From Embleya scabrispora (GTDB lineage: Bacteria; Actinomycetota; Actinomycetes; Streptomycetales; Streptomycetaceae): a DNA stretch of 64,000 nucleotides. Below are positions 1,034-13,740 of the stretch, in pieces (position 1 is the stretch's first letter; the number at the start of each line of letters is the position of its first letter). Location: the NCBI RefSeq assembly GCF_002024165.1, contig NZ_MWQN01000004.1, forward strand, positions 434,001 through 498,000, in the 5' to 3' direction. The position numbers and the translations under genes are program-made. The notes under the pieces were generated by a model, which worked only from the letters and a program-made list of their open reading frames with translations, did no database searches and was not told the DNA's origin.

Positions 1034-1178
1034 CGCGCGGCGGCGAATCCCGAAGGGCTCGGCGAAGCGGAGGCGGCCGGCGGAGAGGGACGAAAGCCGT
1101 CGTCCGGGGTAGTTGGGATCGTCGATCGCGGGCAGGGATGCCCGTCCATCGACGCCGAGGTCACCGCCGGAGATCGAC

Positions 1179-1576
1179 ATGGACGACGAACCACCCGCAT
1201 CGCCACACCCTCGCGAGACGATCCGTTGGGACGTGCCGCCCAACCCGGGCACCTTACGCCTGGTCCGTCACGCGGTACGCGACACCCTCACCGATTGGGG
1301 CTGGGCCCGCGAACGTGTTCACACCGCCGTGTGGGTGACCTCCGAACTCGTCGGCAACGCCCTGCGCCACACCGACGCCGGCGCCGTGCTCACCCTGACG
1401 CCCCTCCCCCACGGCGTCCGCCTGACCGTCACCGACACGTCCCCACGCCCGCCCGTCCGCCGTACCCCCGGCCCCCACGGCGGGCACGGGTTGCGTGTCC
1501 TCGACACCCTCGCCCCGGGTGGAGCGTCGAACACCACCCGCACGGCAAGAGCATCCATGCCGACATCCGGACCTGA
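1179..1576 (+). pseudogene. RsbW-like ATP-binding anti-sigma regulator, apparent frameshift near the 3' end
   Basis: This is a small HATPase_c_2 protein of the RsbW/SpoIIAB type, which usually bind a sigma factor or phosphorylate a STAS protein. From ATG 1179 (MDDEPPASP) the frame shows the typical N-box (TSELVGNALRH) and the Gly-rich GGHGLRVLDTLAP box. Streptomyces relatives normally continue with a W-x-VEH..KxIHADIRT ending. That ending is present (VEHHPHGKSIHADIRT, stop at 1576) but one base out of frame, around 1515-1521 in a CCCCGGG run. As sequenced the frame instead runs on to 1712 through unrelated sequence. Either one base is missing from the assembly or the C-terminus is really changed. 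The neighbouring PP2C and STAS genes fit a partner-switching role. Confidence 0.7.
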
Positions 1577-1717
1577 CGCCGCGCGACACCGACTCGCCCG
1601 GCCGCCGGCGGGACGGAGCGAACGGCGGATCCTTTCCGGGAAAGACCGCGGGAAACGCACCGATTCCGGGGAATGCGGCCTCTCGGGCGGGGCAGACGTG
1701 GGGCGGAGGTAAAAACA

Positions 1718-1888: not shown

Positions 1889-2382
1889 ACCACGGACCAC
1901 ACCGCGTCATCGACGGTCCGTCGTATATCCGACAACAAGACGCGACAGACACGCTCTCCCGCTGTGTGACCGACGGGGTGGGGTGTGGGCCGAACCCGCG
2001 AATCGGGGCCGACCCGCACCCCACCCTTTTCCGTGTGCGCCGGGCGACACTCGACTGTCGAAAAACCCCGAAAACACCACCGGGCCGCGAAATGAAAACC
2101 AACTCTCCGGGCAGGGATGAAACAAGCCGGGACGGCCGTGACGAATGCGGGAGTCATTCGCACCTCCACACGACCGCCCCGGCCCCCACGTCTGCGACCC
2201 CCAGGCCACATCATGATCGAGGGTGTGGGCACACGGTTCGGCCGGTGCCACGATCCGGCGACACGCAAGACGGTGCTTTTGCCGCTTTTGATCCAGAATT
2301 ACCCGTTTTCTGCCGGGTGTTGCGTGTGGCCGGTGCATAGGACACGGTTGCAGGAAGACAACTGTTGTCCAGCGACAGAGAG
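1889..2382. other. intergenic region, no supported gene
   Basis: About 490 bases of locally lower GC content. Frames here are short shadows with poor codon bias on both strands. It probably carries the promoter of the PP2C gene that follows, but I cannot point to a convincing -35/-10 pair. Confidence 0.4.
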
Positions 2383-4103
2383 GTGGTGGGGTGCGCGCGA
2401 TGCGTTCCCCGGCTTGTGATCCGTACTTCGGGTACACCCCAGACTCCGCGCGGCGCTGACGTTCACGTCGGCTCGGTATGGAACAACGCCCCCTACCCCG
2501 TTCTCGTCGTCGACGCCGACGGGGACGTCATCGGATCCAACGAAGGCGCGCGCCGACTGCTCGCGCATGCCGAGGAGGTCGGCGAAGGGCTGACCGCGGG
2601 CGGCCTGCCGCACTGGCTCGCACAGGCGCACCACCGCCGCCCGCACTCGGCCGCGGCGCCTCGGGGGCGGTGTCGGGCGCCGTGTCGGGTCGTACGTTCG
2701 AAGCGCATCCCTCGCAGATCGAGAACGGGGATGTGGTGTGGTGGCTCGTGGAGGACACCGATCTTCGTCGAGCCGAGCAGGCACTGCGCAACGAGCGCGA
2801 ACGTGCCGAACTGTTGGCGGACATCTCCGGCGCGCTGCTGTCGTCGCTGAACCTGGAACGATGCGCGGAGGTGACGGCGCGGATGGCCGCGGATCACCTG
2901 GCCGACGCCGCGGTGGTCGTCGCCCCGGCCCAGGGTCGCCGGCACGCGCTGACCTACGCGCAGGCCGGCGGCGGCATCACGCGCACCGTGGCGTCGATCG
3001 ATCCGCGCACGGTTCCCGGACTGGCGGAGGCGTTGCAGGGTTTCCCACCGGTCCCGACCCGGTGGATCGACCCGGAGGACATCCCCGACTGGAGCGTGCC
3101 GCCCGGTTTCGCCGGTCCGATCGGCTCGGTGATCGTCACCCCACTGCCCGGACACGGAGTGCCGGCCGGGGTGCTGATCCTGCTGCGCGCGAGCACGCAC
3201 CGGGCGTTCACGGACGGCGAGGAGGTGTTCGCGCGGCTGTTCGCCGCACGGGCCGGCGCCGCCCTGTCCGCGGCACGGCTGTACGCGGAGCAGGCCTCGA
3301 TCACGACCACGCTGCTGCGGGAGTTGCTGCCGCCGCGGCTGGAGCGGGTGCACGGCGTGGAGTACGCCGGCGTCTACCGGGCCTCGCAGGACCACGAACG
3401 GGTCGGCGGTGACTTCTATGACGTCCATCCCGGTGCGGACGCGTCCCAGGAGACGTTCGTCGTGCTGGGCGACGTGGCGGGCAAGGGCCTGGAAGCGGCC
3501 GTGCTGACCGGAAAGATCCGCAGTGTCCTGCACGCGCTGTTGCCGCTGTCCGGGAATCACCAGCAGATCCTCGTCCTGCTCAACGACGCGTTGATGAACT
3601 CCCACCACACCCGGTTCGCGACCCTGGTCCTGGCCTCCGTACGGCGCAGCGCGGGGCAGGTGCTGCTGCGGTTGACCAGCGCCGGACATCTGCCGCCGTT
3701 GATCGTCCGCGCCGACGGGCGGGTGGAGGAAGCCGCGACCGGCGGCACCCTCGTGGGGGCGCTGCCCGACGTCCGGTCGCGGAGCGTGGACGTGGCACTG
3801 GCACCCGGCGAGACCTGTCTGCTGTACACGGACGGGATCACCGAGGCGCGCGGCGGGCCGCTGGGTGACCAGTTGTACGGCGAGGAGCGGTTGCGCGAGG
3901 CCCTGCGGGAGTGTGCGCGCATGCCGGCGGAGGCCTTGGTCGAGCGGGTCCAGATGCTGGCGGCCCAGTGGCTGGGCGGCGGTGGTCACGACGACATGGC
4001 CACCCTGGCGATCACCAACCCGGCCGGCGGTCTCGACGGATTCCCCGTCGCGGACGACCACCGGGACCGCGAGGGCCACGAGCCACGACGGCGGGAACCG
4101 TGA
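2383..4103 (+). pseudogene. PAS-GAF-PP2C (SpoIIE-type) serine phosphatase, apparent frameshift
   Basis: SpoIIE-type phosphatases dephosphorylate STAS anti-anti-sigma proteins. The first frame (start uncertain, GTG 2383, 2386 or 2416) encodes a PAS-like segment, NAPYPVLVVDADGDVIGSNEGARRLL. Around 2640-2665 the coding frame moves by one base, continuing as GAVSGRTFEAHPSQIENGD and EDTDLRRAEQAL. A GAF-like domain follows (to about base 3290), then the phosphatase domain with its metal-binding motifs GGDFYD, GDVAGKGLEAA and, near the end, GHDDMATLAI. The downstream frame is open from 2478 but its first 55 residues are an arginine-rich shadow. A missing base in the GC run explains everything. The gene is followed 40 bases later by the cobalamin-binding gene and the STAS gene, and probably forms one operon with them. 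Confidence 0.75.
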
Positions 4104-4143: not shown

Positions 4144-5274
4144 GTGAAGACGGACACTGTCACGACGGGCACCGCGAAGACGGGCGACGGGGAGGCGGAC
4201 GCCTCGACCCCGGGCATACCCTCCGATCTCGCGGAGCGACTGTGGACGGCCGTGATCGGCCGGGACGAGCCGGGCGCGATGGCACTGGCCACCGCGGCGG
4301 CCGATGCCGGGGCCGATGGTGAGACCCTGCTCCTCGACGTCGTGGCCGCCGTGCAGCGCCGAGTCGGGCTCGAATGGGCGGCGGACCGGATCGGTGTGGT
4401 CGAGGAGCACGCCGCCACCGCGATCATCGACCGGGTCATCGCCGTTCTCGCCCACCACCACCCCGTGCCGCACCCGTCGCGGACGCGGGGCAACGTCACG
4501 GTCGCGTGCGTGGACGGCGAATGGCATTCCCTGCCCGCCCGGTTGCTGGCCGAGACGCTCACCCGGCGCGGCTGGCGGGTGGACTTCCTCGGCGCCCACA
4601 CCCCGACTCCGCACCTGATCGCGCACCTGCATCAGAGCAACCCGACCGCCGCCCTGCTGTCGGCCTCGCTGCCCACCCACCTGCCCACCGCACACCAGGC
4701 GATCACCGCCGTGCAGTCGCTGGGCATCCCGGTCATGGTCGGCGGCGCCGCCTTCGGCGCGGACGGCCGCTACGCCCGTCTCCTGGGAGCCGACGCCTGG
4801 GCCCCCGACGCGCGACGCGCCGCGGACCGGCTCGCCCGGGGGATCACCGGCCGGCACGCGGAGCGCCGGCACGAGATCGACGATCTGCCCCATCTGGCCG
4901 ATCAGGAGTACACGTTCGTCAAGTCCAACCGCACCGCCCTGGTGCGGCAGTGCCTGGTCGCCCTCGACGAGCGCGGGCCCGGGATGCGCGCGTACAGCGC
5001 CGCCCAGCGCGAACGAACCGCCGAAGACCTGGCCCATATCGTGGACTTCCTCGCGACGGCCCTCTACGTCGACGAGGCGGACCTGTTCACCTCCTTCGTC
5101 GACTGGACCAGGGACATACTCACCGCCCGCCGCGTGCCCGCGGCCGGTTTGCGTCTGGGGCTGGACATCCTCGCCGAACAACTGCACGACTTTCCCCGCG
5201 CTCTCGGCTTCATCCGCGCCGCGACCGACACCCTGCCCGCGGCACCCGCCCACTCCGGCCCGGAAGCGGTATGA
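4144..5274 (+). CDS. cobalamin-binding sensor protein with CarH-like photoreceptor motifs
   Basis: The 376-residue protein starts at GTG 4144; further upstream the frame is only a shadow of the PP2C gene. Residues about 25-105 form a helical bundle like the B12-binding cap (MetH-type cap), and residues 115-210 a Rossmann-like B12-binding domain. The cap carries W78-x9-E88-H89 and the binding domain E126-x-H128. These are the two motif sets (Wx9EH and E/DxH) that mark adenosylcobalamin photoreceptors of the CarH/LitR family. There is no MerR DNA-binding domain; instead a helical C-terminal region (about 245-370) follows, of unknown fold. The gene sits between a PP2C phosphatase and a STAS protein and overlaps the latter by four bases, so the output is probably partner switching on a sigma factor. 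Light sensing is inferred from residues only. Confidence 0.8.
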   Translation: MKTDTVTTGTAKTGDGEADASTPGIPSDLAERLWTAVIGRDEPGAMALATAAADAGADGETLLLDVVAAVQRRVGLEWAADRIGVVEEHAATAIIDRVIAVLAHHHPVPHPSRTRGNVTVACVDGEWHSLPARLLAETLTRRGWRVDFLGAHTPTPHLIAHLHQSNPTAALLSASLPTHLPTAHQAITAVQSLGIPVMVGGAAFGADGRYARLLGADAWAPDARRAADRLARGITGRHAERRHEIDDLPHLADQEYTFVKSNRTALVRQCLVALDERGPGMRAYSAAQRERTAEDLAHIVDFLATALYVDEADLFTSFVDWTRDILTARRVPAAGLRLGLDILAEQLHDFPRALGFIRAATDTLPAAPAHSGPEAV

Positions 5275-5684
5275 CCTCCCCCAAGCCCGTCGAGTTCTCC
5301 GTCGACGTTCGGGCCGGCGACACCCGGTCGCTGCATCTGGCCATTCGGGGAGATCTCGAGTACGACACCGGCACCGCGTTCACCGAGAGGGTGAACGCGG
5401 TGCTGGACACGCATCTGCGGCGGTACGGACCGGCGCTGCGTCATCTGCACCTGGACTGGGAGGGCCTGACCGCGATCGACTCCGGCGGGTTGTCCGTCCT
5501 GATCGGACTGCGTCGCCGCACACACACCGCCGGAATCGCCCTGCACCTGCACCGACAACCCGTGCGACTGACCCGGCTGCTCGAAATCACCGGGGTCGGC
5601 GGATACCTCACCGAGCCCACCGACACGGACGGGCGCGGCTTCGCCGCAGGAGGCGACGAAGGCGGGTCCATGCCCTCCCCCTGA
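5271..5684 (+). CDS. STAS-domain anti-anti-sigma factor
   Basis: A 137-residue STAS protein whose ATG overlaps the stop of the cobalamin-binding gene (ATGA), so the two are translationally coupled. The core lies at about residues 10-120. The diagnostic loop reads LTAIDSGGLSVLIGLRRR, with the serine that is phosphorylated by RsbW-type kinases and released by PP2C enzymes. The cytoplasmic role is to bind an anti-sigma factor and free the sigma factor. With the ATPase, two PP2C genes and the cobalamin sensor nearby, a local partner-switch circuit is likely; which sigma factor it controls cannot be seen here. Confidence 0.85.
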   Translation: MTSPKPVEFSVDVRAGDTRSLHLAIRGDLEYDTGTAFTERVNAVLDTHLRRYGPALRHLHLDWEGLTAIDSGGLSVLIGLRRRTHTAGIALHLHRQPVRLTRLLEITGVGGYLTEPTDTDGRGFAAGGDEGGSMPSP

Positions 5685-6721: not shown

Positions 6722-7969
6722 GTGAACGTATACGAGGAAGCCGAGCGTGCGCTGCGCGCCGCACCCGCGCATGGGCTGTTGGACGCCATCCGCGGCGTGC
6801 TCACGCGGCACTGCCGGGCAGGAGCCGTCGACCTGCTGATGGCCGACTACAGTCTGACCGTCCTGCAATCGGTGTCCGCGCTCCCTCCGGCCGCCGAACA
6901 CCTCTCCATCGACAACAGCCCCCAGGGTCGGGTCTTCGGCGCGCAGGAACCCGCGCACGAGCAACGCGGCCCGGCCACGATCGTCCACCTCCCGGTGACG
7001 GTACGCGGCGACCGTCTCGGGGTCCTTTCCGTCACCCTCCCGACCGACGCCTGTTCGCCGGCCGTGCGGAGCGAACTCGTCGACATCGCCGAGATGCTCG
7101 CCCACGCGATCACCGTCGCCGAACGCGACACCGACCTCTACCGCTGCGCCCGACGCAAGGACCGGCTGACCCTCGCGGCCGAGATGCAGTGGCAACTCCT
7201 GCCCGGCCACGCCTACCGACGCGACGAATACGCCATCGGCGCCCAACTCGAACCCGCCTACGCCGTCCACGGCGACAACTTCGACTGGTCCGCCACCGCC
7301 GACCACCTCACGCTGACGGTGACCGACGGCATGGGCGAGGGCATCGACGCAGCCCTGCTCAGCAACCTCACGATCAACGCCCTGCGCAACGCCCGACGCG
7401 CCGGAATTCCCCTCGCCGACCAGGCGGCCCTCGCCGACCAGGCCGTCTACGCCCGGCACCGCGGCAACGCCTACCTGTCCGTCCTGCTGCTCGACTTCGA
7501 ACTGACCACCGGGTGGGTGCAGGTGATCGACGCCGGTTCCCCGCGCCTGTTGCTCCTGCGCGAGGGAACGGTGACCGCGGTCGACTTCGACGCGCAACTG
7601 CCTCTGGGCATGTTCGAGGAGACCGACTACAAGGCGCAGGAATTCCGGGTCCGGCCCGGCGACCGGCTGGTCTTCGTCAGCGACGGGGTCCACGCGGTCG
7701 CCTCACCGGCCGGCGAAGCCTACGGCGACCGCGCGTTGGCCCGGGCGATCAGCGCCACCCGGCTGCTGCCGCCCGCCGAGATGCCCCGCGCCGTCCTGCG
7801 CGAACTCACCGGCCACCGCGGACGCCCCATCCCCGACGACGACGCCCTGATCGTCTGCCTGGACTGGTACGGCAGGCCCACCGCACCCGACGGCCCGCCG
7901 CCCGACGACACCGAACGGACCCGCGCCCACGTGTCCCCCGTCGGGGGCGCGCGGCACGCTTCGCACTGA
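6722..7969 (+). CDS. GAF-PP2C (SpoIIE-type) phosphatase with variant metal motif
   Basis: A 415-residue cytoplasmic protein from GTG 6722. Residues about 15-140 look like a GAF domain, followed by a short linker (LAAEMQWQLLPG, the usual lead-in of SpoIIE phosphatases) and a PP2C domain at about 165-385. Motif II TDGMGEGIDAALLSN, the DAGSPRLLLLR strand, the SDGVHAVASPAG segment and DDDALIVCLDW are present. The normally strict GGDFYD motif reads HGDNFDW, so one glycine and the tyrosine are changed while the key aspartates remain. Activity is therefore likely but not certain. It lies 1 kb downstream of the STAS operon and may act on the same STAS protein or on another one. Confidence 0.85.
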   Translation: MNVYEEAERALRAAPAHGLLDAIRGVLTRHCRAGAVDLLMADYSLTVLQSVSALPPAAEHLSIDNSPQGRVFGAQEPAHEQRGPATIVHLPVTVRGDRLGVLSVTLPTDACSPAVRSELVDIAEMLAHAITVAERDTDLYRCARRKDRLTLAAEMQWQLLPGHAYRRDEYAIGAQLEPAYAVHGDNFDWSATADHLTLTVTDGMGEGIDAALLSNLTINALRNARRAGIPLADQAALADQAVYARHRGNAYLSVLLLDFELTTGWVQVIDAGSPRLLLLREGTVTAVDFDAQLPLGMFEETDYKAQEFRVRPGDRLVFVSDGVHAVASPAGEAYGDRALARAISATRLLPPAEMPRAVLRELTGHRGRPIPDDDALIVCLDWYGRPTAPDGPPPDDTERTRAHVSPVGGARHASH

Positions 7970-9108: not shown

Positions 9109-10116
9109 TCAGGCGGACAGGGTGAGCGCGATGTCGACGATCATGTCCTCCTGGCCGCCGACCAGACCTCGGCGGCCGCATTCCATGAGGAGGTCGCGCA
9201 CGTCCACGCCGTAGCGCGCGGACGCGGCTTCGGCATGGCGCAGGAAGGACGAGTAGACGCCCGCGTAGCCCAGGGTGAGGGTTTCCCGATCGACCCGGAC
9301 CGGGCGGTCCTGGAGCGGACGAACCAGGTCGTCGGCGGCGTCCTGGAGCGCGAACAGGTCGCAGCCGTGGGCGAAGCCGGACAGGTCGGCGACCGCGATG
9401 AACGCCTCCAGCGGGCAGTTCCCGGCGCCCGCGCCGTGCCCGGCCAGCGAGGCGTCCACGCGGAAGCAGCCGTTCTCCACCGCGACCACCGAATTGGCCA
9501 CCGAGAGCGAGAGGTTCTCGTGGGCGTGGATCCCGATCTCGGTCTCCGGCCGCAGCACCTCCCGATACGCGCGCACGCGGGCGGCGACGTCGTTCATGGT
9601 GAGCCGGCCGCCGGAGTCGGTGACGTAGACGCAGTGTGCGCCGTACGACTCCATCAGCCGGGCCTGTCGGGCAAGTGCCTCCGGCGGGGCCATGTGCGAG
9701 AGCATCAGGAATCCGGAGACGTCCATGCCGAGTTCACGCGCCGCGGCGATGTGCTGCGCGGAGATGTCGGCCTCGGTGCAGTGCGTGGCGACGCGAACCG
9801 AGCGGACCCCCAGGTCGTAGGCGCGTCGCAGGTCGTGGATGGTGCCGACGCCGGGCAGCAGCAGGGTGGTCAGCCGGGCGCGCTCCAGGACGGAGGCGGC
9901 GGCCTCGATCCAGGCCCAGTCGCTGTGCGAACCGGGGCCGTAGTTGAGCGAGCCGCCCGCGAGGCCGTCGCCGTGCGCCACTTCGATGGCGTCCACGCCG
10001 GCCCGGTCGAGGGCTGCGACGATGCGCGCGACGTCCGCGGGGGTGATCCGGTGCCGCACGGCGTGCATGCCGTCCCGCAAGGTGACGTCCTGGACGTGGA
10101 TCGGGGTGGTGCTCAC
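9109..10116 (-). CDS. dmpG: 4-hydroxy-2-oxovalerate aldolase
   Basis: DmpG/MhpE/BphI cleaves 4-hydroxy-2-oxoacids to pyruvate and an aldehyde. The 335-residue protein has a DRE-TIM aldolase barrel with its N-terminal metal motif ([12 protein letters not shown]) and the metal-binding [13 protein letters not shown] strand, followed by the C-terminal lid ([14 protein letters not shown]) that contacts the dehydrogenase. The GTG start at 10116 overlaps the stop of the acetaldehyde dehydrogenase gene (GTGA), which fits the known aldolase-dehydrogenase complex that channels acetaldehyde. It is the last gene of a three-gene lower meta-cleavage operon. Length and motifs are normal for the family. Confidence 0.95.
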
Positions 10117-11114
10117 GAGGCGGCCTCCACGTGCCGGCGGGTGGTGCCGCGGCCGCTGTCGGCGCCCGGGCCGCGGGCCGCGTCGCGGGCCGCCATCCGT
10201 TCGCCGACGCGGAGCGCGGCCGAGGTCATGATGTCGAGGTTTCCGGCGTAGGCGGGCAGGTAGTGGGCGGCGCCCTCGACCTCCAGGAACACCGAGACCT
10301 GGTGGGTGGGCCGATCCGTGCCGGGAGCGAGCAGGGTCTCCAGCGGCTGGTCGGCGGGGACGGGGGTCACCTGGACCTCCTGCTTGAGCCGGTAGCCGGG
10401 CACGTACTCGGCGACGGCGGCGACCATGGCGGCCACCGCCTCCCGGATCGGCTCCACCGGGTCGAAATCGGGCGTGCCCACCAGCGCCAGGACGGTGTCG
10501 CGCATGATCAGCGGCGGCTCGGCGGGGTTGAGCACGATGATCGCCTTGCCGCGCCGGGCGCCGCCGACCTCGACGATCGCGGCCGAGGTGGTCTCGGTGA
10601 ACTCGTCGATGTTGGCGCGCGTGCCCGGCCCGGCGGACTTCGAGGCGATGGACGCCACGATCTCGGCGTACGCGACCGGGGCCACCGCGCCGATCGCGGC
10701 GACCACCGGGATGGTGGCCTGTCCGCCGCAGGTGACCATGTTGACGTTGTCGGCGTCGAGGTGCTGTTCGAGGTTGACCGCAGGGACGACGTACGGCCCC
10801 AGCGCCGCGGGCGTCAGGTCGATCAGCCGCTTGCCGTACGGCCGCAGCCGGGCCGCGTTGTGGGCGTGCGCCTTGGCCGAGGTGGCGTCGAAGACGATCG
10901 CGATCTCGTCGAATCCCGGCATCGCGATCAGCCCCTCGACCCCGTCGTGGGTGGTCGGGACGCCGAGCCGGCGGGCGCGGGCCAGGCCGTCGGAGTCGGC
11001 GTCGATGCCGACCAGCGCACCCATTTCCAGGTGTTCGGCGGTGCGCAGCACCTTGATCATCAAATCGGTGCCGATGTTGCCCGATCCGATGACGGCGACC
11101 TTGGTCCTGGTCAT
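10113..11114 (-). CDS. acetaldehyde dehydrogenase (acetylating)
   Basis: MhpF/DmpF/BphJ-type enzyme, converting acetaldehyde, NAD+ and CoA to acetyl-CoA. The 333-residue protein begins with a Rossmann fold ([19 protein letters not shown]) and has the catalytic cysteine C129 in [12 protein letters not shown]. The C-terminal domain contains the conserved [24 protein letters not shown] region. Its length matches the family. Start ATG 11114 overlaps the hydratase stop, and its own stop overlaps the aldolase start, so all three proteins are translationally coupled. It works as a heterocomplex with the downstream aldolase. Confidence 0.95.
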
Positions 11115-11934
11115 GAACCCTCCTCGTCGAAGTCCGGGCCGAAGTCGATCGCGACCGTGCCGAGCCCGGTGATGTCGGCACGGACGCTGTCCCCGGGCGC
11201 CACGGGGTGCATCGGCCCCAGCGCGCCGGAGAGCACGAGTTGCCCGGCGCGCAGCGGATCGCCGAGGTCGCGGGCCTGCCGGGCCAGCCAGGCCACCGCC
11301 TCGATCGGGTCGCCCAGGCAGGCGGCGCCGGTGCCGGTGGAGACCGCCTCTCCCCCGACCGTCATGGTCATCCGCACCTCGCGCGGCACGAATTCGTCCA
11401 GGCCCCTGCGCACGGTGCCCAGGACGTACGCGCCGGACGAGGCGTTGTCGGCCACGGTGTCGGCGAAGCGGATGTCCCAGTCGCGCACCCGGCTGCCGCA
11501 GATCTCCAGGGCCGCGACCGCGTGGTCGACGGCATCGTGCACCTGGGCGGGGTCGAGCGGCCCGTCGGCGAGATCGGCGCCGAGCACGAACGCCACCTCG
11601 GCCTCGACGCGCGGTTGCAGCACCGCGCGGTAGGGACCACGTCGCCGACGGCGTAGCCCATGTCGTCGAAGAGCACGCCGAAGTCGGGCCGGTCGACGCC
11701 CAGTTGCCGCTGGACGGCGGTGGAGGTGAGGCCGATCTTGCGGCCGACGACCCGAGCGCCGCGGGCCATGCGGTCGTCGACGATCCGGCGCTGGACGGCG
11801 TACGCCGCGGCCAGTTCGCCCGGACCGATCAGGTCGCGGACCGGGGCGCAGGGGATGCCGGTCGCGGCCGCGTCGAGCAGCCGTTCGGCCGCGGCGCGCA
11901 CCGCGTCCTCGCCGTGGGGGGAAGTACTCGTCAT
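11111..11934 (-). pseudogene. 2-keto-4-pentenoate hydratase, apparent frameshift
   Basis: MhpD/DmpE-type enzyme, adding water to 2-hydroxypenta-2,4-dienoate to give 4-hydroxy-2-oxovalerate. From ATG 11934 the first frame reads MTSTSPHGEDAVRAAAERL through [40 protein letters not shown]. The rest, [21 protein letters not shown] to [10 protein letters not shown], is in the next frame, with the acidic metal site PRVEAEVAF intact. The shift lies at about 11632-11642: one extra base in the codon for the proline of VVPY would restore a full protein of about 274 residues. It is the first gene of the lower meta-cleavage operon, so a real null would block the pathway. A sequencing error is the simpler explanation. 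Confidence 0.8.
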
Positions 11935-11974
11935 ATCGGCATCTTCGTGACCCTCGACGATCGCCCACAATCAA

Positions 11975-12764: not shown

Positions 12765-12828
12765 CTCGCGGCGCGGCGCCGGACACCGCTTCGGCGGGTG
12801 CGGGGTTGGGACTTGTACGGTGGGTTTC

Positions 12829-13740
12829 GTGACCGTCGACCCGCTGCCCGATCCGACCGCCGAGTTCGAGGCGCAGCGGGGGCGGCTGTTCGGGATCGCG
12901 TATCGGATGTTGGGGTCGGCGGCGGAGGCCGAGGACGCGGTGCAGGATGCGTATCTGCGCTGGCACGCGGCCGAGCGGGGACACATCGACGCGCCGGGGG
13001 CGTGGTTGGCCAAGGTGCTGACGAATCTGTGCCTCAACCGGCTGACGTCCGCGCGGGCCCGGCGCGAGGAGTACGTCGGGCCGTGGTTGCCCGAGCCGGT
13101 GCGGACGGACACCGGGGTGCTCGGGCCGTTGGAGACCGCCGAACAGCGGGACGCGGTGTCGATGGCGATGCTCGTGATGCTGGAGCGGTTGTCGCCGCCG
13201 GAGCGGGCGGTCGTGGTGTTGCGGGACGCGTTCGGGTACAGCCATCGGGAGATCGCCGAGGTGCTGGACTGGTCGGAGGCCAACTCCCGGCAGACGCACC
13301 GGCGGGCCAGGCTGCGTCTCGCGTCCGGGCGGCCGCGTTTCGAGGCTCCGGCGGCGGTGCGGTCCGACCTGTTGGCGCGCTTCCTCGCGGCGGCGGCCGA
13401 GGGGGCGCTCGACGAACTGGAGGCGCTGCTCGCGGACGATGTGGTGGCGTGGTCCGACGGCGGTGGCAAGGTCTCCGCGTCCACGCGCCCGGTCTTCGGT
13501 CGGGACAAGGTGGCCCGGTTCCTTCTGGGCCTGGTGGCGCGCTTCTCCTCCGGTACGGAGTTCGGCTTCGCCGAGGTCAACGGCGACACGGCGCTGCTGG
13601 GTTGGGAGGGCGGAGCGCTCACGACGGCCGCGGTGGTGGAGGTCGGCGCGGAGGGCATCTCGGGCGTGCGGATGGTCCGGAATCCGGAGAAGCTGAAATT
13701 TCTCGAAGAACAATGCCGAGAGTTGTCACGTAACGCGTAG
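12829..13740 (+). CDS. sigJ: ECF41 family RNA polymerase sigma factor SigJ
   Basis: A 303-residue sigma factor (start GTG 12829; GTG 12820 is a possible alternative). Region 2 spans about residues 10-80 (FGIAYRMLGSAAEAEDAVQDAYLRW) and region 4 about 115-170 (LSPPERAVVVLRDAFGYSHREIAEVLDWSEANSRQ). A C-terminal SnoaL-like extension of about 115 residues follows. ECF41 marks are present: WLPEP in the linker, DGGGK in the extension and RNPEKL near the end. In this family the extension takes the place of a separate anti-sigma factor. ECF41 genes are usually next to a carboxymuconolactone decarboxylase, oxidoreductase or epimerase gene, and the gene that follows fits the last type. Confidence 0.9.
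   Translation: MTVDPLPDPTAEFEAQRGRLFGIAYRMLGSAAEAEDAVQDAYLRWHAAERGHIDAPGAWLAKVLTNLCLNRLTSARARREEYVGPWLPEPVRTDTGVLGPLETAEQRDAVSMAMLVMLERLSPPERAVVVLRDAFGYSHREIAEVLDWSEANSRQTHRRARLRLASGRPRFEAPAAVRSDLLARFLAAAAEGALDELEALLADDVVAWSDGGGKVSASTRPVFGRDKVARFLLGLVARFSSGTEFGFAEVNGDTALLGWEGGALTTAAVVEVGAEGISGVRMVRNPEKLKFLEEQCRELSRNA

Follow-up and report, generated by a model that had tools for sequence, protein, structure and literature searches.

A predicted photocobilin encoded between PP2C and STAS genes in Embleya scabrispora and other actinomycetes

The window analysed here is a 64,000-nucleotide stretch of the Embleya scabrispora genome (contig NZ_MWQN01000004.1, positions 434,001 to 498,000). Judged by its sequence and modelled fold, the protein encoded at 4144-5274 is a photocobilin (Pcob), in which a B12 domain is followed by a photoglobin. 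By analogy with characterized photocobilins, it is probably a vitamin B12 light sensor of a known kind that also uses biliverdin. Its gene lies between a PP2C phosphatase gene and a STAS gene, and homology, domain order, conservation of the chromophore residues and conservation of the operon were all observed directly. The explanation that best accounts for these observations, and that we hold to be fairly probable, is that light acts through the Pcob on the PP2C and thereby on STAS partner switching. Judging from this gene context, light probably switches a sigma-factor pathway in this way by protein contact. The features are collected in Table 1.

Table 1. Features of the window around the predicted photocobilin gene; residue numbers count from the GTG at 4144, and Sas denotes SasPcob of Saccharothrix syringae.
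Feature	Position	Strand	Basis or remark
Possible RsbW-like HATPase	1113..1712	+	Borderline: PF13581 at 27.4 bits, with the cut-off at 27.4
PP2C N-terminus, continued in a different frame	2365..2664	+	Shifted by one base relative to the Embleya hyalina gene, which is intact
PP2C (SpoIIE-type) with GAF	2478..4103	+	PF07228 E 8.3e-42, PF01590 E 7.4e-05; frame upstream of ~2665 looks spurious
Predicted photocobilin (Pcob), 376 aa	4144..5274	+	GTG start; first ~27 residues poorly conserved; phmmer and fold match
Four-helix cobalamin cap, B12-binding_2, residues 29-105	4228..4458	+	PF02607 at 29-102; helices 29-38, 42-54, 59-79 and 85-105 in the AlphaFold model
Wx9EH: W78 (4375-4377), E88-H89 (4405-4410)	4375..4410	+	Aligns with Sas W61, E71-H72; invariant in 81/81 and 80/80
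Rossmann B12-binding domain, residues 117-232	4492..4839	+	PF02310 at 117-225; alternating strands and helices in the AlphaFold model
E126-x-H128, predicted lower axial His H128	4519..4527	+	Aligns with Sas E106, H108
H157	4612..4614	+	Aligns with Sas H137, which putatively forms a cross-dimer salt bridge with the biliverdin propionate (role: PMC10979010)
Predicted photoglobin/biliverdin domain, residues ~254-361	4903..5226	+	phmmer, AlphaFold model, Foldseek
D295	5026..5028	+	Aligns with Sas D270; biliverdin A/B/C rings (role: PMC10979010)
W321	5104..5106	+	Aligns with Sas W296; biliverdin D ring (role: PMC10979010)
STAS anti-sigma-factor-antagonist-like protein, 137 aa	5271..5684	+	PF13466 E 4.4e-11, PF01740 E 7.5e-10; candidate phosphosite S71 (5481-5483)
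Second PP2C (SpoIIE) gene	6722..7969	+	PF07228 E 2.4e-39; place varies among relatives, outside the conserved three-gene core

A Pfam scan of the whole protein found B12-binding_2 and B12-binding as its sole domains and no MerR or HTH domain, as the sequence-only reading had stated, and left the C-terminal third unnamed. That third holds the photoglobin domain, which the same reading had missed. When the protein was compared with solved structures by phmmer, the top match was SasPcob (8J2W/8J2X; E ~1e-73 over residues 31-354, 46% identity at 315 aligned positions), followed by AbPcob (E 6e-40); CarH-type structures scored E 3e-10 to 2e-8 in alignments that end at residue ~228. The AlphaFold model (mean pLDDT 81.6) predicts four helices, a Rossmann domain and then seven helices at 254-361. 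Searched with Foldseek, this model ranked 8J2W, 8J2X and 8J2Y at the top (E 7.6e-25 to 1.2e-17, target-normalised TM 0.88-0.89), with 8J2W_A the best match (E 7.6e-25, TM 0.89 by target length), above the CarH chains, which aligned over ~200-220 columns. Because the phmmer match, the predicted fold and the Foldseek ranking all lead to the same proteins, we assign the protein to the photocobilins.

The best NCBIfam match is the CarH model NF052513, and on that ground one might suppose a CarH-like, light-dependent repressor that binds DNA together with a separate DNA-binding partner. We regard this as extremely improbable, since the score of 51 bits is far below the 400-bit cut-off (the match begins only at model position 80), the protein has no HTH domain and photocobilin structures match it far better; the systematic survey of neighbours covered PP2C, STAS and RsbW-like kinase genes, so that a DNA-binding neighbour may still exist. 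A CarH that has lost its DNA-binding domain was ruled out as well by the C-terminal globin and by the fold search. The earlier description of a CarH-like adenosylcobalamin (AdoCbl) photoreceptor thus stands, by homology, for the type of photoreceptor, but not for CarH: the protein is predicted to be a photocobilin with a photoglobin, and it has Ala after W78.

The residues expected to hold the chromophores are present. W78-x9-E88-H89 and E126-x-H128 were read exactly, nine residues separating W78 from E88, and by alignment Sas W61, E71, H72, H108, D270, W296 and H137 each fall on the same amino acid in the window protein (Table 1). All four elements of a published CBD photoreceptor signature (GxxW, EH, GxxH, GxxxP; available part of PMC11796333) can be located, at G75xxW78, E88H89, G125xxH128 and G150xxxP154, the last of these being our own assignment from the sequence. 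The residue that follows W78 is Ala (A79), as in all 26 aligned sequences. In many CarH proteins a His after the Trp is the upper ligand of a bis-His light state (available part of PMC9304148), while the light state of SasPcob is aquo/hydroxo (available part of PMC10979010); Ala at this position fits the latter and not the former.

We used two partly overlapping samples. The first comprises 120 Pcob places picked from the matches listed (L060-L179; 97 regions for the 128 matches listed in the window's family and 23 for the 41 listed outside it), of which 103 were assigned to the window's class by a hand division according to kinship. Related stretches numbered 358, and the best 80 of them form the second sample, which leans to close relatives and shares genomes with the first. 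The W, E, H, H108, D270 and W296 positions (Sas numbering) are invariant in 81/81 Pcobs with both a PP2C and a STAS neighbour and in 80/80 of the best 80 of 358, while the H137 position is His in 79/81 and in 78 of the 80. The Wx9EH and axial-His motif is therefore not a chance occurrence, and the expectation that it would be conserved beside STAS genes is borne out, 74 of the 80 having a STAS gene. Among the 39 other Pcobs of the first sample, W, E, H and H108 are kept in 38 (the exception is one shortened match), D270 is Asp in 30 (5 gaps) and W296 is Trp in 29 (7 gaps).

The PP2C, Pcob and STAS genes follow one another in the same orientation on the + strand. As had been read from the sequence, the Pcob gene follows the PP2C gene, whose ORF ends 40 bp before the Pcob start, and it shares four bases with the STAS gene, where ATGA at 5271-5274 is both STAS start and Pcob stop. 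Across the 120 places, a PP2C upstream and a STAS downstream were found in 85, a PP2C only in 15, a STAS only in one and neither in 19; the count of 81 used above for residues came from a first, stricter STAS scan, which a profile scan raised to 85. Within the window's class the PP2C is upstream in 100/103 and the STAS downstream in 86/103, with a PP2C and no detected STAS in 15/103 and neither in 2/103. In the 17 places outside the class, there was neither a PP2C upstream nor a STAS downstream in any (0/17); at L171 a PP2C follows the Pcob. In the best 80 of 358, the PP2C is upstream in 80/80 and the STAS downstream in 74/80; these loci span Streptomyces, Saccharothrix, Embleya hyalina and 22 Mycobacterium/Mycolicibacterium records (both neighbours in 22/22), and the single Nocardioides, Nocardia and Actinoallomurus loci among them have a PP2C and no detected STAS. 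Co-occurrence counts of this kind are weighted by related Streptomyces.

The genes are also closely spaced. From the PP2C stop to the conserved Pcob core the median distance is 17 bp (79 pairs), and Pcob and STAS overlap by an exact ATGA, read in the STAS frame, in 68/86 of the class places and in 70/74 of the loci from the best 80 of 358. As a yardstick, PP2C stops in the same loci read ATGA in 114/194, the frame having been checked only for STAS, so that ATGA is common at the stops of these loci. Gene fusions were considered as proof of partnership, but none joining PP2C to Pcob or Pcob to STAS turned up among 121 and 81 Pcob ORFs.

Both neighbours look competent for partner switching. The metal-site Asp residues are present in 98/98 aligned PP2C proteins (matches scoring >300). 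The D-S/T motif of the STAS protein, whose S71 is a candidate phosphosite by comparison with SpoIIAA/RsbV, has Ser or Thr in 80/84 relatives with a letter there; the window STAS has Ser, and that of the sister species E. hyalina (L061), the nearest relative found, has Cys. By sequence, then, the operon encodes a PP2C with a predicted intact metal site and a STAS protein with a candidate phosphorylatable Ser. The E. hyalina PP2C gene is an unbroken ORF, and that of the window is shifted by one base near 2660, which splits off an N-terminal segment. This break may be an assembly error or may be real; if it is real, the PP2C of the window's strain is without that segment. The description of the locus as a STAS partner-switching operon holds in that both PP2C and STAS are neighbours, with the correction that the PP2C, not the STAS, is the more constant one.

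That constancy bears on the question of which protein the Pcob contacts. The PP2C is its likeliest target because it is the most constant neighbour, keeping its place where no STAS was detected and also beside the paralogue described below; because a GGDEF gene takes the same upstream side in Pcobs of other actinobacterial classes; and because the cyclase of a published fusion is light-activated and standalone Pcobs act on it in trans. With the PP2C as effector, the STAS protein becomes its natural substrate. Alternatively, the STAS protein itself may be what the Pcob acts on, either by shielding it from the kinase or the PP2C or by offering it to them, with the PP2C merely resetting the system, much as RsbR-type globin-STAS proteins work in the stressosome. 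The frequent ATGA overlap, suggestive of coupled translation, speaks for this arrangement, as does RsbR itself, in which a STAS domain is likewise linked to a non-heme globin. We nevertheless think it unlikely: the STAS gene is less constant than the PP2C gene in both samples, and its product has diverged more than those of the other two genes (mean distance 0.53, compared with 0.36 and 0.34), although divergence may also hinder its detection. The correlation of distances was rejected as partner evidence, since it does not favour the PP2C over the STAS (Spearman 0.51 and 0.56) and is uninformative without a species tree.

A second alternative concerns the stimulus. Here the same dimer switch would report the level of AdoCbl or the redox state of cobalamin, not light, which would suit soil actinomycetes, whose life is presumably spent largely in the dark, and would agree with the report that AdoCbl binding alone lowers the diguanylate cyclase (DGC) activity of AbDPcob (available part of PMC10979010). 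Against this, the residues holding the photolabile adenosyl group, Trp and Glu-His, do not vary, and neither do the biliverdin Asp and Trp of the operon Pcobs, for which an AdoCbl sensor would have no use; moreover, CarA, a B12-independent relative, is without the Trp of the motif (available part of PMC9304148). We consider such a sensor improbable, more so than direct action on the STAS protein.

We therefore favour light sensing with the PP2C as direct target, and by analogy with SasPcob we envisage the following course. In the dark, AdoCbl would be bound base-off/His-on via H128, W78 and E88-H89 would hold the adenosyl group and the head-to-tail dimer, and the C-terminal globin would probably bind biliverdin. 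Green light, or red light via biliverdin, would break the Co-C bond, free the adenosyl group and open the dimer, and the surface thus exposed would alter the activity of a protein partner, which the gene context suggests to be the PP2C encoded just upstream. The PP2C would in turn remove the phosphate from the STAS protein, whose gene directly follows that of the Pcob, and the dephosphorylated STAS protein, again as the context suggests, would bind to an RsbW-like kinase with its gene elsewhere and so release a sigma factor.

The sequence-only reading had named an RsbW-like ATPase as a possible interaction partner to check. The window does contain a borderline Pfam match to one (Table 1), but such a kinase is not a constant neighbour, being found within ~5 kb in 49/120 and 29/80 loci. 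The window's genome (10.96 Mb) has, at E <= 0.001, 36 SpoIIE, 20 STAS_2 and 76 HATPase_c_2 matches, numbers that single out no one kinase for the operon. At 12820-13740 the + strand encodes a sigma factor of the sigma-70 type, with regions 2 and 4 and a C-terminal part that weakly matches SnoaL-like domains, and the - strand at 10113-11968 carries an acetaldehyde dehydrogenase gene and an FAA-hydrolase-family gene, as would suit a meta-cleavage pathway. Two of the three B12-binding_2 domains of the genome are in Pcobs. The second Pcob (L160, C1 near 5520845) is 34% identical to the first and has its own PP2C upstream, and on either side of this pair a STAS gene runs in the opposite direction. 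Of these two STAS proteins, one is longer: it has 228 aa, and its domain spans residues 113-213.

Biliverdin use was also considered from the side of supply. The window's own genome has a heme oxygenase, and in the window's family one is present in 93/112 genomes with a Pcob and in 128/185 without (Fisher p 0.009, odds ratio 2.2, uncorrected for kinship), a difference too weak to serve as proof of biliverdin use. Heme oxygenase was undetected in 19/112 Pcob genomes of the family; the Pcob was aligned for 15 of the 19, and all 15 still keep the Asp and Trp. Since genomes in which no heme oxygenase was seen retain these residues, a simple requirement for biliverdin is disfavoured or its source is unseen: either the ligand may be something other than biliverdin, or biliverdin may come from elsewhere.

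Among the 17 places outside the window's class, of whose neighbours some were scanned, the Pcobs at L175:3990-4946 and L176:5972-7027 are each immediately preceded by a separate GGDEF gene, and for that at L156:6364-7182 such a gene lies two genes upstream, separated from the Pcob by an ABM-domain gene. An ABM-domain gene directly precedes the Pcob at L159 as well. The Pcob and GGDEF pairs of L156, L175 and L176 resemble an unfused version of the AbDPcob arrangement. With these places in mind we advance, tentatively and at somewhat less than even odds, a broader proposal: the photocobilins of Actinomycetes would be diffusible, light-gated regulators of a dedicated PP2C, responding to green light via B12 and to red light via biliverdin, and feeding anti-sigma/STAS partner switching where a STAS protein is present, while in other actinobacterial classes the same module would govern diguanylate cyclases, the effector gene again lying upstream. 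The genera concerned are Streptomyces, Mycobacterium, Nocardioides, Nocardia, Saccharothrix and Actinoallomurus, and the step would be a light-driven counterpart of RsbT-RsbU.

Two further places deserve mention in their own right. At L166:5061-8220, also outside the class, a Pcob-like gene (292 aa) in an actinobacterial genome is directly followed by a heliorhodopsin gene (PF18761, E 1.7e-101) and an NmrA/DUF2867 gene, so that two photoreceptor types apparently share one operon, as far as sequence can tell; the available part of a 2024 survey of heliorhodopsin neighbours (PMC11109279) does not contain the word 'cobalamin' and has B12 only in a reference title. At L168:3759-5648 a 629-aa ORF carries a phycobilisome-like stretch N-terminal to its B12 domains, in the reverse order (PF00502, E 2.3e-4, just under the cut-off).

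Photocobilins were described in 2024, in a paper whose available part calls the function of standalone photocobilins less clear, reports from STRING a potential interaction of SasPcob with STAS, SpoIIE and PP2C proteins, and proposes a role in stress response (PMC10979010). Because these links had already been given for SasPcob, the window protein adds to the known photocobilins. The SignatureFinder paper (PMC11796333) adds more such proteins in its available part, and its main text does not contain 'anti-sigma', 'sigma factor', 'phosphatase' or 'PP2C'. A literature search by title and abstract, which did not cover the Schneider 2022 photoglobin paper, found no report of this PP2C/STAS light system besides the photocobilin paper. 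What we add is a quantified PP2C-Pcob-STAS operon across several genera, with both chromophore sites conserved within it, and a ranking of the PP2C above the STAS protein as target, inferred from context. If the proposal is true, light feeds sigma-factor control in many actinobacteria, several Mycobacterium species included, by protein contact, and a strict three-gene operon in a genetically tractable Streptomyces would allow a direct test of the path from light to PP2C/STAS via B12 and biliverdin.

Among known systems, SasPcob is the closest. It is a standalone photocobilin, solved in the dark (8J2W) and in the light (8J2X), that passes from a dark dimer to a light monomer and binds biliverdin in its photoglobin (available part of PMC10979010). 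The window protein shares its domain order, its AdoCbl residues, its biliverdin Asp/Trp/His, the lack of a fused output and the lack of a His after the Trp; the two differ in that they are 46% identical and that binding and photochemistry are transferred to the window protein from SasPcob. AbDPcob (sensor 8J2Y) is a photocobilin-diguanylate cyclase fusion whose cyclase is activated by light and on which standalone Pcobs act in trans (available part of PMC10979010), with the DGC preceding the sensor (available part of PMC11796333). It has the same sensor module, and light raises the activity of its enzyme partner, but its output makes c-di-GMP within one chain and its biliverdin Asp is His, whereas the enzyme adjoining the window's sensor is a PP2C. 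CarH/LitR (5C8D, 3WHP) share the cobalamin-binding module with Wx9EH and ExH, but they have a MerR DNA-binding domain, no globin and a bis-His light state formed with the His after the Trp, where the window protein has Ala.

Partner switching itself is the business of RsbU/RsbT-RsbV-RsbW, and RsbR is a non-heme globin. These systems resemble the operon described here in their PP2C and STAS pair and in a globin-fold sensor that feeds a STAS/PP2C output; they differ from it in that the sensor of the window is predicted to be a B12/bilin photoreceptor and that no kinase is its constant neighbour.
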